Source: Anaerolineales bacterium
GTDB taxonomy: Bacteria; Chloroflexota; Anaerolineae; Anaerolineales; UBA11579
DNA: 64,000 bases
Direction of reading: 5' to 3'
NCBI GenBank assembly: GCA_019637675.1
Contig: JAHBVE010000002.1
Span: forward strand, 271,797-335,796
The notes below the pieces were generated by a model. The model saw only the letters and a list, made by a program, of their open reading frames with translations. It was not told the origin of the DNA and did no database searches. Position 1 is the stretch's first letter; the number at the start of each line of letters is the position of its first letter. The translations under genes and the position numbers were made by a program. This document shows positions 37,959 through 47,986 of this stretch, one piece after another.

Positions 37959-39206
37959 TTAGTTCTCGCCCAAATACTCTTTGAGCTTCTTGCTCACCAC
38001 CGGATGGCGCAGACGGCTCAGCGCCTGGGCCTCGATCTGGCGCACACGCTCGCGCGTCACGCCCATCTTGCTGCCCACTTCTTCCAGGGTATAGGCCTGG
38101 CCATCCAGCAAACCGTAGCGCAGTTGCAGAATGCGCACTTCGCGCGGCGGCAACCCATCCAGCACCTCGCCCAGATGTTGGCGCAGCAGGTTGTAGGTCG
38201 CCGAGTCGTCGGGAGCCGGGGCTTCGTGATCCTGAATAAAGTCACCCAGCACCGAATCTTCCTCATCGTCCGTGGGGGTCTCCAACGAAAGCGGGCGGCG
38301 GGCCACCTGGATCATGTTCTCCACCTTCTTGGCGGGCACATCCAGGGCGGCGGCCAGCTCCTCCACCGATGGTTCGCGACCCAGGCGCTGGGTCAGCTGG
38401 TGCTGCACACGCAGCAGCTTGTTGATCTGGTCGCCCATGTGGACCGGCACACGGATGGTGCGCCCCTGGTCGGCGATCGCACGCGTCACCGCCTGGCGGA
38501 TCCACCAGGTGGCATAGGTGCTGAACTTGTGGCCGCGGCGGTAATCGAACTTCTTGGCGGCGCGGATCAGGCCAATATTGCCTTCCTGGATCAGGTCCTG
38601 GAAGGGCACGCCGCGCCCCATGTACTTCTTGGCCACGCTGATCACTAGACGGCTGTTGGCCGTGATCAGATGCTCACGGGCAGCCCAGCCATCCTCAATA
38701 TTAAAGCGATACTTGCCGCGCTGGGCCTCTTCCAGGCGGCCCGAGGCCAACACTTCGCGGGCGATACGGCCCTTTTCGATGCGCTTGGCTAGGCTTACTT
38801 CCTCGGCCGCGGTCAGCAGGGGTACCCGCCCCACTTCCTTCAGGTACAGGCCGATCATGTCATCGGTGTCGATGTTAGCCAGGTAATTGTCGTCAGCTTC
38901 GCGCTGGCGGCGGCTTTCGCTCTCTTCTTCCTCTAAATCCTCGTCCCCGCTCAGGTCAGCATCCGCCGCCTGCTCCAGACCCTCCGGATCGTCCACATAA
39001 GCCACTCCGGCGCCCAGCAGGGCGGCAAAGGCTTCCTCCAGCTTGTCTACGTCTCGCTCAGCCTCAGGGAAGAAATTGAGGATGTCATCGATCGTGACAT
39101 AGCCTTGTTTACGGCCTAATTCAATTAAACGGACAACTGCAGGGTGATCTCGGTCTTGATCGTGGTCGTTTTCAACGATATCGCTAAGGATCTTTTCGTT
39201 CAGCAC
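37959..39206 (-). CDS. sigA: Primary RNA polymerase sigma factor SigA/RpoD
   Basis: The 415-residue protein has region 1.1-like N-terminus (ELGRKQGYVTIDDILNFFPE) and an acidic linker (90-110). Region 1.2 follows (DMIGLYLKEVGRVPLLTAAE), then regions 2.1-2.4 (LIQEGNIGLIRAAKKFDYRR, HKFSTYATWWIRQAVTRAIA), region 3 and region 4 (LPPREVRILQLRYGLLDG, VTRERVRQIEAQALSRLRH). It reads the TTGACA/TATAAT class seen across this window. The start is GTG 39206 (no nearby ATG), with a weak ribosome site. It is transcribed alone. Confidence 0.97.
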   Translation of the reverse strand: MLNEKILSDIVENDHDQDRDHPAVVRLIELGRKQGYVTIDDILNFFPEAERDVDKLEEAFAALLGAGVAYVDDPEGLEQAADADLSGDEDLEEEESESRRQREADDNYLANIDTDDMIGLYLKEVGRVPLLTAAEEVSLAKRIEKGRIAREVLASGRLEEAQRGKYRFNIEDGWAAREHLITANSRLVISVAKKYMGRGVPFQDLIQEGNIGLIRAAKKFDYRRGHKFSTYATWWIRQAVTRAIADQGRTIRVPVHMGDQINKLLRVQHQLTQRLGREPSVEELAAALDVPAKKVENMIQVARRPLSLETPTDDEEDSVLGDFIQDHEAPAPDDSATYNLLRQHLGEVLDGLPPREVRILQLRYGLLDGQAYTLEEVGSKMGVTRERVRQIEAQALSRLRHPVVSKKLKEYLGEN

Positions 39207-44099: not shown

Positions 44100-44170
44100 G
44101 CAGGCATCGCTTTGGAGCACATTTCCTTGCATGTATGCCCCTAAAATGGCATACTACTTTCCCATATCGC

Positions 44171-47100
44171 ATGGCAACTACCAATTTACGCGACTATTTA
44201 CAGGGAATCGAGCAACTTATCGATTCGGCCCAGGTGGAAGACGCCCTGGCCCATTGCCGCCATGTGCTCAAAACCTTCCCCAAGAACATAGACACCTACC
44301 GCCTGATGGGCAAGGCCTACCTGGAGAGCAAACGCCACAGCGAGGCCAGTGACCTCTTTCAGCGCGTGCTTTCCTCCATCCCCGATGATTTCGTCGCCCA
44401 CATCGGCATGAGCATCATCCGCGAGGATGAAGGCCACCTGGACGCCGCCATCTGGCACATGGAGCGCGCCTTCGAGTCGCAGCCCTCCAACAAAGCCGTC
44501 CAAGGCGAGGTTCGCCGCTTATACGGCATGCGTGAAGGCTACGAGCCTCCCAAGGTGCGCCTGACCCGCGGCGCCCTGGCACGCATGTACTCGCACGGCG
44601 ACCTATACAACCAGGCCATCAGCGAACTGCGCAACGCCCTGGCGGAAGATGCCCAGCGCCCAGACCTGCAAGTGCTGCTGGCTGAAATGCACTTCAAGAA
44701 CAACCAGCCGGCCGAAGCCACTGAAGTCTGCCACCAGATCATTCAAAAGCTGCCTTACTGCCTGTACGCCAACCGCGTGATGGTGGACATTCTGCGCAAT
44801 GCCCAGCAGGATGTTGAGGCCAACCCCTATTGGGAACGCGTAGAAGAGCTTGACCCGTACGCCGCCCAGGTCAGCACCCTCAAAGATGTATCCCTGGTTC
44901 CTGCCGAGAGTGTGACGCTCGAAGCGCTGGAGCTTGACAGCCCCATGCTGCTGAGCGCGCCGGCCGCCACGGACCAGGACGCGCCTGACTTTGAAAAAGA
45001 AGACCTGCCAGATTGGCTTTCTGTTGAAAACCTCGAAACACCTGGCGAGCCGGATGCAGAAGCAGACAGTTCCGTCCTGAGCAGCCTCGAAGGCTTGGAG
45101 CCTGTCGCCCCGGCCGCGGGGGGCGCCTTCATGGACGATGTATCCGAAGACATGCCCACCGGCGATGAGCAATCGCCATTCAAAACCGGCGCGCTGCAAC
45201 CGGATGAGATCCCCGATTGGCTGCGCGAGCTGCGGCCCGGCAGCAGCGCCCCCGGCGCAACTGCCGCTCTGCCAGACGAGCCGCCCGGCAAACGCTGGAC
45301 CGAGGAGTTCGCCGAGGCCGGCTTCTCCCCCAGTGGCCCGCTGAACCTCGACCCGCCGCTGGAAGACCCCACCGACGCGGCCGAGCCCAGCGCACAGGCC
45401 GCCATCGACCCGGCCCACGACGATTCGCCGCAGCCCAGCCGCCCTACCGGCTGGCTGCCCACGGGTGAGTTGAACTGGCTCGACTCCGCCTTCACAGACG
45501 GCGAAGAAGCTCCCGCTGCCAACGAGGACGATGAAGAGCCTGCCGCCTCAGCCGAAACCGCGGCCGAAGCTCCCACCCCAACCTGGGTGGCCGAACTTGA
45601 CCAAGCTGACCTGGAACATACTCAGCCCACGCGCCCCGTCGCGGCTTTCACCGACGTACCTGACCTCATCGACCCCGCCGCTCCGGCTGACGAACCTGAG
45701 GCCGCAGAGCCAGAGCTGCCGCAAGTGACCGCGGAGCCGGCCAAACGACCTACCGAGCCCGCCGCCAATTGGCTGGGCGAGCTGCAAGCTAGCTCCGGCA
45801 TGGCCGACGATCTTGAGCAAGATTCTGACGAAGAAGACGCTCTCAGCGCAGACGCCGATAGCACCCAGCGCTTTGACGCGCTGGGTTGGGATACACCCGC
45901 AGCGGACTCCGAAGCTGAGCAGCTAGAGGCAGCAGCCGAACAGCCTGCCACCGCAAGCCCCAGCCAGGAAGAGCAGGAAACGCTCAGCTGGCTGGAAGGG
46001 TTGGCCGCTCGCCGCGGCGCGGCCGAAGATGAGCTGCTTACAGAGCCGGAAGATCGCCGCACCTCCAAGCCCGAATGGCTGGATGCCCGACCGAATGAAG
46101 ATGGCCCAGCCGCAGCTGCTGAAGCGTCTGCGCCACTGAGTGACAACCTGAGCTGGCTCGATGAGCTGGCCGCTGCCTCAGGTTCCGTGGCAGCCGCCAC
46201 CCAGGATCTGCCGGAGACTGCGCCGGAAGCGCAAGAAGCCCACGGCCTGGAAGAGGATTCGCCTTTCAGCCAGCCGGACCCTGAAATCCCTGCCGAAGAA
46301 ACCCAGGAATCCACGCCCGGCTGGCTGCGCCAATTCACCGGCTCACTGCAGAATGCCGATGAGGCCAACGAGCCCATCGCCCCGCGCCCGCTTGACGATG
46401 CGCCAGACTGGCTGAGCGAACTGCGCCCGCAAGACGACGCGCCGGCTACCCAGCCGCTGGCTGCACCCGAGGCGACTCCACATGAAGACATTCCTGACTG
46501 GCTAAGCCAGCTCAGCAAAGAGCAAGACCAGGCCACCAGCCAAACCCCGGCAGCTGCCCAAGCCAGCCATTCGCAAGATGTGCCCGATTGGCTGCAGCAA
46601 CTCAGCCAGCAGGAAGCCGCTGGCGGCACAGGCAGCTTGCCCACCACTCCCCCCAGCTCAACCCCGGCAGAACCTGCCGAGGCTGAGCCTGCCAGCGAGG
46701 AAGGGGACTGGCGACCAGAGGAAACCGAAGAGGAACCAACTCCCGCACCGGCTATCGAGCCCACCTGGGTACCGGCCAGCCAACTCAGCGAACCTACCTC
46801 GCCGATAGAGTCCGCCGAAGAACCCGGTTACGCGGAAGAGCAACAGGAAGAAGAAGTCGAGTACGAGACTATCACCTTCTCGGGCAGTCTCGAAGCCCAG
46901 CCGGAGCCCGAAGCACGCCAGGATGAGCAAGCTGAAGTAGGCGAAGCTGAATACGTCTCCCTTGCAGAGGATGACGCTGCTGATGCCGAAGATGCTTACA
47001 GCGAGCGCTCATTGGACGACGAAGAGCCAGCTGTGCAGGACGAAGTTGAGCTCCCCAGCAGTGCGCAAGCCGAGCCAGAGCTACAGCCCGAGCCGGCACC

Positions 47101-47458
47101 AGAACGCCAGCCTGAGCCAATGGCTCAGGCTGCCCACGCCGAGGCCAACCCGCCCCTTGCGGAGGCCAAGCCGGCCCGCAAACGCAGCCGCGGCCTCTCG
47201 CCAGAAGAGATCGAGGACCGCCTGGCCGGCGCCCGCCAGGCGCTGAGCTACGGCAACATCAACGACGCCGCCGAAGCCTATAGCTACTTCCTGCGCCGCC
47301 GCATCCGCCTGGATGATGTCATTGCCGATCTGCGCGCCGCCTCCCGCCGCTTCCCGCGTCAGGTGGCCGTCTGGCAGACCCTCGGCGACGCCTACATGCG
47401 CAACAACGAGCTTACCGAAGCCCTGGATTGTTACAGCCGCGCCAAGGCGCTGCTGTAA
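44171..47458 (+). CDS. Giant TPR protein with repeated PDWL-type motifs in an acidic linker
   Basis: The 1,095-residue protein starts at ATG 44171 (MATTNLRDYLQG). Residues 1-240 are TPR helices (AYLESKRHSEASDLFQRVLS, ALARMYSHGDLYNQAISELR, PEWERVEEL-like). About 250-1000 is a Glu/Asp/Pro/Ala-rich, probably disordered region with about a dozen copies of a short P-D/S/N-W-L-x-x-L motif (for example near 45011, 45214, 45985, 46150, 46407, 46498 and 46585). A TPR-like C-terminus (SPEEIEDRLAGARQALSYGN) follows. There is no signal peptide or membrane span. A scaffold role is inferred. Confidence 0.88.
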   Translation: MATTNLRDYLQGIEQLIDSAQVEDALAHCRHVLKTFPKNIDTYRLMGKAYLESKRHSEASDLFQRVLSSIPDDFVAHIGMSIIREDEGHLDAAIWHMERAFESQPSNKAVQGEVRRLYGMREGYEPPKVRLTRGALARMYSHGDLYNQAISELRNALAEDAQRPDLQVLLAEMHFKNNQPAEATEVCHQIIQKLPYCLYANRVMVDILRNAQQDVEANPYWERVEELDPYAAQVSTLKDVSLVPAESVTLEALELDSPMLLSAPAATDQDAPDFEKEDLPDWLSVENLETPGEPDAEADSSVLSSLEGLEPVAPAAGGAFMDDVSEDMPTGDEQSPFKTGALQPDEIPDWLRELRPGSSAPGATAALPDEPPGKRWTEEFAEAGFSPSGPLNLDPPLEDPTDAAEPSAQAAIDPAHDDSPQPSRPTGWLPTGELNWLDSAFTDGEEAPAANEDDEEPAASAETAAEAPTPTWVAELDQADLEHTQPTRPVAAFTDVPDLIDPAAPADEPEAAEPELPQVTAEPAKRPTEPAANWLGELQASSGMADDLEQDSDEEDALSADADSTQRFDALGWDTPAADSEAEQLEAAAEQPATASPSQEEQETLSWLEGLAARRGAAEDELLTEPEDRRTSKPEWLDARPNEDGPAAAAEASAPLSDNLSWLDELAAASGSVAAATQDLPETAPEAQEAHGLEEDSPFSQPDPEIPAEETQESTPGWLRQFTGSLQNADEANEPIAPRPLDDAPDWLSELRPQDDAPATQPLAAPEATPHEDIPDWLSQLSKEQDQATSQTPAAAQASHSQDVPDWLQQLSQQEAAGGTGSLPTTPPSSTPAEPAEAEPASEEGDWRPEETEEEPTPAPAIEPTWVPASQLSEPTSPIESAEEPGYAEEQQEEEVEYETITFSGSLEAQPEPEARQDEQAEVGEAEYVSLAEDDAADAEDAYSERSLDDEEPAVQDEVELPSSAQAEPELQPEPAPERQPEPMAQAAHAEANPPLAEAKPARKRSRGLSPEEIEDRLAGARQALSYGNINDAAEAYSYFLRRRIRLDDVIADLRAASRRFPRQVAVWQTLGDAYMRNNELTEALDCYSRAKALL

Positions 47459-47530: not shown

Positions 47531-47986
47531 TTGGAACGCAGTCTCGTATTGGTAAAGCCGGATGGTGTCCAGCGCGGCCTGGTGGGCGAGATCATTGCCC
47601 GCCTGGAACGCCGCGGCCTGCGCCTGGCCGGCGCCAAGTTTATGCAAGTCACCGCCGCCCTGGCTGAAGAGCACTACGCCGAGCACAAGGGCAAGCCCTT
47701 CTACAGCGGCCTGGTGGAGTACATCACCTCGGCCCCCGTGATGGCGATGGCCTGGGAAGGCCCCAACGCCGTGGCCGCCATCCGCCAGACCATGGGCGCC
47801 ACCCGCCCCACCGAAGCCGCCCCCGGCACCATCCGCCACGACTTCGGCCTGGAAGTGGGCCGCAACCTGACCCACGCCTCCGACAAGCCTGAGACCGGCG
47901 AGCGCGAGGTGGGTTTATGGTTCAAGCCTGAGGAGTTGGTGAGCTGGACCCGCGATATCGATAAGTGGGTCTTCGAAGGCAAATAG
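47531..47986 (+). CDS. ndk: Nucleoside diphosphate kinase
   Basis: The 151-residue protein starts at TTG 47531 after GGAGG (LERSLVLVKPDGVQRGLVGE). Family marks are KPDGVQRGLVGEI, HKGKPFYSGLVEYITSAPV, the MGATRPTEAAPGTIRHDFG loop and the catalytic His in VGRNLTHASDKPETGEREV. It balances NTP/dNTP pools by transferring phosphate through phosphohistidine. RHDFG replaces the usual RGDF/RGDL, and HAS replaces HGS, next to the active His; both are mild variants. A strong terminator follows. Confidence 0.96.
   Translation: MERSLVLVKPDGVQRGLVGEIIARLERRGLRLAGAKFMQVTAALAEEHYAEHKGKPFYSGLVEYITSAPVMAMAWEGPNAVAAIRQTMGATRPTEAAPGTIRHDFGLEVGRNLTHASDKPETGEREVGLWFKPEELVSWTRDIDKWVFEGK

Follow-up and report, generated by a model that had tools for sequence, protein, structure and literature searches.

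A TPR-linker-TPR protein with a reiterated W-L motif

The stretch of Anaerolineales DNA analysed here (hereafter the window) is 64 kb long and lies inside a 2.25-Mb assembly. Its forward strand encodes a large protein with tetratricopeptide repeats (TPRs) at both ends and an acidic linker carrying many copies of a short tryptophan-leucine (W-L) motif, a putative scaffold that is called the scaffold below (Table 1). The open reading frame (ORF), 44135-47458 (+), is real, and the ATG at 44171, already chosen in a first-pass annotation made from the DNA alone, is the likely start because orthologues open with M-A-x-I-x-L-R-x-Y at that point.

Pfam TPR models matched both protein ends, and the helical tetratricopeptide repeats of the TPR superfamily were found by Pfam, in an AlphaFold2 model built with 54 sequences, and in comparisons with solved structures and folds. 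The PDB sequence and fold comparisons returned TPR proteins only, either generic or of unrelated function, and the NCBIfam matches were of TPR type, every one under its cut-off; as far as the family libraries used here recognise it, the protein is TPR only. The N-terminal TPR domain (N-TPR) showed a mean column identity of 71% in eight family sequences, and that of the window is 99% identical to the N-TPR of the metagenome-assembled genome 'Anaerolineales bacterium ACE_CHL1'. The predicted local distance difference test (pLDDT) score was below 50 for 615 of the 1,095 residues, in segments between residues 264 and 1006. At many of the W motifs the model placed short helices, mostly of low confidence (residues 349-354, 436-440, 471-478, 534-540, 717-723, 746-750, 776-786 and 806-816). 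The sole confidently predicted linker stretch was residues 598-640 (mean pLDDT 81-94 per ten residues), which holds a second motif class (class II); 96 copies of class II-like elements were found across 60 of the 80 related loci introduced below.

The 755-residue linker contains 12 WL, 7 WL..L and 5 PDWL, compared to means of 1.35, 0.107 and 0.014 and maxima of 6, 3 and 1, respectively, in 5,000 composition shuffles. The first-pass description of about twelve W-L motifs in some 750 acidic residues between TPR ends was thus confirmed, and a motif number no higher than composition would give, which it had named as the outcome that would count against it, was not observed. Its four named PDWL places (near 45214, 46407, 46498 and 46585; motifs 2 to 5 in Table 1) were right, but the list was incomplete, as a fifth copy (motif 1) had been overlooked.

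At the DNA level, the PDWL core was matched five times in the window, each time inside the scaffold ORF (chance mean 0.51). Among the matches listed, the window's own genome gave 28 matches to the PDWL pattern and 22 to its reversal, and three further genome entries gave 96 vs 40, 68 vs 57, and 91 vs 47; the PDWL signal is a clustering in few genes, not genome-wide abundance. Recent tandem duplication was rejected as the source of the motifs, as the DNA repeats found within 44900-47200 were just imperfect ones of 19-24 nt.

Table 1 Features of the scaffold gene and two other genes in the window.
Feature	Position	Strand	Basis and remarks
TPR - acidic linker - TPR protein (putative scaffold)	44171..47458	+	1,095 aa; 1107 aa if started in frame at 44135
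N-terminal TPR domain, ~6 repeats (our helix reading), residues 1-235	44171..44875	+	Pfam TPR matches, pLDDT ~97
Disordered acidic linker with W-L motifs	44954..47191	+	Segments with pLDDT < 50, composition, motif counts
PDWL motif 1 (LPDWLSVEN)	45008..45019	+	W codon 45014; W retained in 4/4 congeners
PDWL motif 2 (IPDWLREL)	45212..45223	+	W codon 45218; short helix, fragment-model mean pLDDT 74, residues 341-350
PDWL motif 3 (APDWLSEL)	46403..46414	+	W codon 46409
PDWL motif 4 (IPDWLSQL)	46493..46504	+	W codon 46499; lost or altered in some congeners
PDWL motif 5 (VPDWLQQL)	46583..46594	+	W codon 46589; absent from 1/4 congeners
Looser W-L/V motifs	45452..46777	+	W codons 45452, 45476, 45584, 45770, 45989, 46076, 46154, 46322, 46766
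Second motif class (class II), WLEGLAARRGAAEDELL...PEWL, residues 598-640	45962..46090	+	pLDDT 81-94
C-terminal TPR domain, residues ~1011-1094	47201..47452	+	Pfam TPR_2 and others; pLDDT 95-98
ndk, nucleoside diphosphate kinase, conserved downstream neighbour	47531..47986	+	Pfam PF00334
Sigma-70 factor with region 1.1	37959..39206	-	Pfam; not adjoining the scaffold gene in the window

Retention of the motif in a drifting linker

Eighty related loci were recruited through the N-TPR alone, 16 of them with an ORF that is incomplete at the sequence end. The WL count was above all 200 shuffles in 76 of these (exceptions L086, L092, L115 and L121), PDWL was present in 77 (none in L086, L114 and L115), and motif copy number was highly variable. 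In 17 family sequences every motif class was found above the shuffle mean, with one protein reaching 31 W-L; the extraction pattern missed three of the 19 orthologous family loci (G008, G001 and G020), and in the truncated sequence from G010 neither WL nor [DE]WL was above its largest shuffle. The protein set covered 53 of 61 complete proteins longer than 700 aa, and the N-TPR set covered 66 of the 80 loci.

When the window's protein was compared to four congeners, the N-TPR and C-terminal parts were 92% identical whereas the linker was 49% identical, and within the linker the motif core (positions -2, -1, 0, +1 and +4) reached 81% identity vs 43% outside the motifs. Hydrophobic residues of the linker lying outside the motifs were less conserved than the core (F 0.75, W 0.67 and L 0.53, against 0.81). 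Thirteen of the 17 linker tryptophans were invariant in the four congeners, and tryptophans 573, 777, 807 and 847 were lost or replaced in some congeners; motif turnover thus exists within the genus.

The first-pass statement that the surroundings vary while W-L is kept was therefore borne out by the congener alignment, and orthologues lacking the motif at random positions, which it had held would speak against it, were not the pattern seen in the 80 loci or the four congeners. Its proposal of a selected, repeated short linear motif is well supported by the shuffles, the 80 loci and the constraint among congeners.

A second, membrane-type protein with the same motif

Six DNA matches to PDWLxxL were found in the window's genome. 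Four lie in the scaffold gene and one in a sugar-transferase-like gene, where the match encodes PDWF; the sixth opens a further gene, G000:C3:226455-228008. The protein encoded by this last gene is unrelated to the scaffold and bears four PDWL-type motifs on its N-terminal arm. It is apparently membrane-anchored, as judged by eye from hydrophobic, transmembrane-like segments in the C-terminal half, and is referred to here as the membrane-type protein. The neighbours of its gene encode a DUF6754 protein and a GlmL-like protein (NCBIfam, under its cut-off).

Most genomes of the order examined (54 of 61) contained a homologue of this protein, and all 20 loci that were read contained the motif, in 2-11 copies each. 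Of ten further homologues seen in full length, nine start with a paired C-x2-C that looks zinc-ribbon-like by eye; the Levilinea protein gave no Pfam match and has 19 motifs. A membrane-type protein with a PDWL array was seen at L179:9435-11033 and at L230:5268-8660. The two families have a similar motif consensus (788 instances taken from 80 loci for the scaffold, 165 from 23 for the membrane-type protein), both preferring the order acidic-acidic-aliphatic-P-D/E-W-L-x-x-aliphatic, with an aliphatic residue or F at the last position in 56% and 64%, respectively.

Tandem pairs, defined as two PDWL 52-82 nt apart, were searched for under 16 genome handles, two of which (G127 and G423) gave identical coordinates and were counted as one, leaving 15 genomes and 34 distinct matches of 36. 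All 36 matches lay inside the scaffold or the membrane-type family, and the reversed pattern gave none. Thirty matches were read as loci, and BLAST placed 26 of them in either family; the other four, and six matches not read as loci, lay inside the Levilinea membrane-protein ORF or the G255 TPR ORF. No tandem pair was found in G006, G008 or G011. The reiteration of the motif in a second, unrelated protein is new here and had been overlooked in the first-pass annotation. A proteome-wide class of motif-bearing proteins was also considered and rejected, as tandem pairs occurred in the two families alone and single PDWL matches in DNA, among those listed for the four genome entries above, were only mildly above the reversed control; this two-family limit covers tandem pairs, proteins with single motifs not having been surveyed.

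Related scaffolds in other lineages

The N-TPR was found in 140 of 400 genomes sampled from the phylum. Distant orthologues, read at 20 loci, keep the TPR start, and most have a TPR-like end, but their reiterated words differ: a PFSLxxLGLSPEEI-type word occurs in five distant genomes (6-23 copies), a GYTxxLxSLxxxGxEPF-type word in three (2-5 copies), and EPDW[MIV]KQ (11 copies) and a DWRAxLRExTEALL-type word (5 copies) in one each. At least six distant loci out of the 20 (L152, L154, L155, L156, L158 and L159) showed no reiterated word that we recognised. The W-L array is retained in L151 (23 WL); here the scaffold frame stops, and 38 bp further on a second ORF carries more W-L motifs and a TPR-like end, so that this locus (G263) represents a split gene, a frameshifted gene or an assembly error. 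In five distant orthologues (L142, L143, L146, L160 and L161) a sigma-70 region 1.1-like stretch was found in the linker between PFSL-type repeats; four of them scored above the Pfam cut-off of 22.5 bits (26.6 with the whole protein; 33.9, 29.0 and 33.4 with the stretch alone) and the fifth scored 21.9.

Gene neighbourhood and co-occurrence with Roadblock

Of the 59 loci whose ORF was complete and whose sequence extended far enough, 57 have ndk downstream of the scaffold gene, on the same strand and no more than 600 bp away; at the distant loci, ndk stands within 900 bp downstream in 15 of 20. A Roadblock/LC7 gene directly follows the TPR gene in 14 of these 20, with ndk behind Roadblock in 13. 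All 14 are outside the window's class and five of them supplied the search queries; L155 and L156 gave weak matches (53 and 69 aa, E 9e-5 and 4e-6). When the Roadblock model PF03259 was run on five of the adjacent products, four were over the cut-off and one just under. Roadblock did not adjoin the TPR gene in four distant loci of the window's class, nor in L150 and L152. At 24 of 75 related loci, a homologue of the window's sigma-70 gene immediately precedes the TPR gene, with the same orientation and its end no more than 300 bp away.

PF03259 is encoded in all 24 family genomes, with two copies in the window's own, where a V4R-domain gene stands directly after one of the Roadblock genes (L174:7104-8120). 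The same genome encodes a Ras-like GTPase (L272:2782-3330, minus strand; PF00071 35.9 bits, PF03029 71.8 bits), and its Roadblock, GTPase and TPR genes lie apart from one another. At L276:1936-3362 and L274:3263-4697, the gene standing before the Ras-like GTPase gene may encode a PATAN/DUF4388-like product. An Arf model matched in 22 of 25 chosen genomes, but also in 8 of 14 controls, and therefore gives little information on MglA-type GTPases.

Scaffold and Roadblock were found together in 28 genomes, the scaffold without Roadblock in none, neither in nine and Roadblock alone in five (Fisher p 4e-6, kinship uncorrected); G199, described below, was excluded from these counts. Nine of the 14 scaffold-less genomes tested thus lack Roadblock. 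Matches to the scaffold of 16-22 bits, in G223, G456 and G334, were scored as absence, and six of the 18 genomes of the order without a scaffold match were left out of the Roadblock test (G078, G366, G458, G460, G468 and G470).

G199 (L284) encodes a degenerate scaffold orthologue between sigma-70 and ndk, with zero W-L motifs in its linker. Identity to the window's N-TPR is 23.5% for G199 and 57-61% for four motif-bearing relatives, whereas for the neighbouring sigma factor the corresponding values are 71.5% and 76-78%. Neither Roadblock nor the membrane-type protein was detected in the G199 genome.

Comparison with known systems

The TPRs of kinesin light chain, part of a eukaryotic motor and unlike the present system in that respect, read W-acidic cargo motifs, short peptides that likewise have an aromatic residue in acidic surroundings. 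In the PDWL consensus the W is preceded by P and followed by L, which is not known as a feature of the W-acidic motif. A closer likeness in architecture is found in SgmX from Myxococcus xanthus, described in the available sections of its account as a protein of 1,060 aa with N- and C-terminal TPRs and an undefined middle that binds MglA-GTP (PMC7519303). Compared by description, size and layout are nearly the same as in the scaffold, with TPR ends and a long middle without known domains, but those sections mention no reiterated W motif for SgmX (PMC7519303). The SgmX system furthermore has a Roadblock protein, MglB; for the scaffold, a functional tie to Roadblock may be suggested by gene adjacency in 14 of the 20 distant loci and by joint absence, but such adjacency was seen in none of the 80 related loci. 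Roadblock proteins and Ras-like GTPases form modules in CvnB/CvnD and MglB/MglA, and MglA-family and Rup GTPases have been reported in Chloroflexi (PMC4316618). Both types of gene are present in the window's genome, and the sections of that account available to us mention no combination with a TPR scaffold and ndk (PMC4316618).

In the Chlamydomonas pyrenoid, one motif on EPYC1 and on RBMP1/2 and SAGA1/2, membrane proteins included, binds Rubisco, with a networking and a proposed tethering function, and is reported in Volvocales only (PMC10473226). The present motif is likewise reiterated on a presumably soluble linker protein and common to an unrelated protein whose membrane nature is predicted from sequence. 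The pyrenoid partner, on the other hand, is Rubisco; the likeness is one of working logic, and no common descent is claimed. Among the papers listed from the library searched, on the motif itself and on Anaerolineae or Chloroflexota in connection with TPR, short linear motifs, Roadblock, small GTPases or disorder, none gave a description of the present system.

Candidate mechanisms

Multivalent docking, as proposed in the first-pass annotation, is a fair if putative inference, made stronger by the reiteration of the same motif in a second, unrelated protein. That earlier interpretation thus held for the selected motif and reasonably so for docking, but had overlooked the second protein, the neighbours and the link to Roadblock. 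The reading that we tentatively put forward, and to which we would give somewhat less than an even chance, is that the protein serves a Roadblock/Ras-like GTPase module as a multivalent scaffold with an SgmX-like layout, whose tags would dock a partner shared with a membrane anchor. The scaffold would be cytoplasmic, with two rigid TPR domains linked by a disordered acidic arm. This arm would display many copies of a probably helix-forming docking peptide, approximately [DE][DE]-[LIV]-P-[DE]-W-[LM]-x-x-[LIVMF], together with a related W-L-E-x-L-A element. As several copies of the same peptide are borne by the N-terminal arm of the apparently membrane-anchored protein, a common partner could bind both at the membrane and in a scaffold network. 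The scaffold's working partner would be a Roadblock/LC7 protein of the MglB/CvnB type, which would probably connect the scaffold to a Ras-like GTPase, much as SgmX works with MglA in Myxococcus. Behind this reading stand the conservation of the motif above its surroundings, its presence in two families, the linkage to Roadblock and ndk elsewhere and the joint absence with Roadblock, all read from sequence; motif binding, membrane tethering, cytoplasmic location, a physical action of Roadblock and the GTPase role are what we infer.

Several observations weigh against it. A Roadblock gene stands beside the TPR gene in none of the 80 related loci (flanks of up to 8 kb) and in none of the four same-class distant loci, and where Roadblock does adjoin scaffolds, these carry quite different motifs or none that was recognised; Roadblock may therefore accompany the TPR domains rather than PDWL. 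Five genomes encode Roadblock with no detected scaffold, namely four incomplete family genomes (G009, G016, G018 and G019; 76-90% complete) and the contaminated G439 (7%). The joint absences are confined to families f3 and f101, the tested genomes were chosen by us and six of 18 were untested, and the co-occurrence is for these reasons only indicative. Finally, neither scaffold nor Roadblock was detected in G191 and G223, yet their membrane-type proteins retain W-L motifs, so neither would be the sole motif reader there; the scaffold could be present in these genomes in a diverged form, like in G199. Roadblock as the sole PDWL reader was rejected on these grounds, that it adjoins scaffolds with other motifs and that the motifs persist without it in G191 and G223. 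First among the candidate readers comes a so far unobserved protein that the two arms would have in common, followed by the TPRs of the scaffold itself, then Roadblock, and last RNA polymerase or a sigma factor.

The foremost alternative, which we regard as unlikely though deserving of attention, is self-docking. Here the W-L motifs would occupy TPR grooves of the same protein, in cis or trans, in the manner of W-acidic peptides on kinesin light chain TPRs; the scaffold would then be autoinhibited or self-networking, and would be recruited to the membrane-type protein. The N-TPR is highly conserved together with the motif and diverged in the motif-less G199 orthologue, and groove residues R7, R44, K48, L51, E52 and D165 (groove positions being our assignment from the TPR register) are invariant in 67 sequences. 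As a class, however, groove positions are just slightly more conserved (0.74) than other non-signature positions (0.69, p 0.09) or helix B (0.65, p 0.04), and the groove carries a net charge of -3, unlike the basic groove expected for acidic peptides. The models are similarly divided: the class II element, seemingly too short for folding alone, was confidently predicted, as a docked peptide might be, and in the fragment model motif 2, next to the TPRs, reached pLDDT 74, but motif 1 showed no confident docking (pLDDT ~50). Two genomes in which no scaffold was detected moreover retain PDWL in their membrane-type protein. Docking to its own TPRs was thus rejected as a proven answer, groove conservation and the fragment model being too weak.

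A non-specific sticker-spacer arrangement, in which W-L patches maintain the solubility of the acidic arm and let it self-associate weakly without any dedicated partner, would explain the widely variable copy number and the fact that other lineages place different reiterated hydrophobic patches on this architecture. We consider it rather improbable: it does not sit well with a preferred patch order in two unrelated families, far from the expectation from composition, or with the lower conservation of linker hydrophobics outside the motifs. A transcription-linked scaffold, with the acidic arm acting on RNA polymerase or sigma-70, appears very unlikely. It is suggested by the upstream sigma-70 genes and by the region 1.1-like stretches of the five distant orthologues, but no such match was among the Pfam results for the window's scaffold, sigma adjacency was seen at only some of the 75 loci whereas ndk adjacency is far broader, and in G199 the sigma adjacency was kept while the motif was lost.

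Implications

The known bacterial examples of reiterated docking motifs are mostly carboxysome linkers. The findings presented here point to an undescribed docking system, in which a motif would be common to a soluble linker and a membrane anchor, a pattern known from the algal pyrenoid (PMC10473226). This pattern can be traced through an order of little-studied bacteria, where the motif has been exchanged from lineage to lineage while the scaffold is kept, and where a series of natural losses appears to link the scaffold to a Roadblock regulator. In the widest reading, which is speculative and on balance doubtful, a Chloroflexota-wide TPR-linker-TPR scaffold encoded beside Roadblock and ndk would use lineage-specific docking words (PDWLxxL in Anaerolineales; EPDWMKQ or PFSLxxLGLSPEEI in other classes) to form a GTPase-regulated condensate or lattice, which would be tethered to the membrane in Anaerolineales since the word of that order is also found on a membrane-type protein. 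If true, this would be a bacterial counterpart, by convergence, of the linker-and-anchor logic of the pyrenoid. For a protein recognised as TPR only, the analysis gives a small set of testable partners, and it may open up the role of Roadblock proteins and Ras-like GTPases in Chloroflexota.

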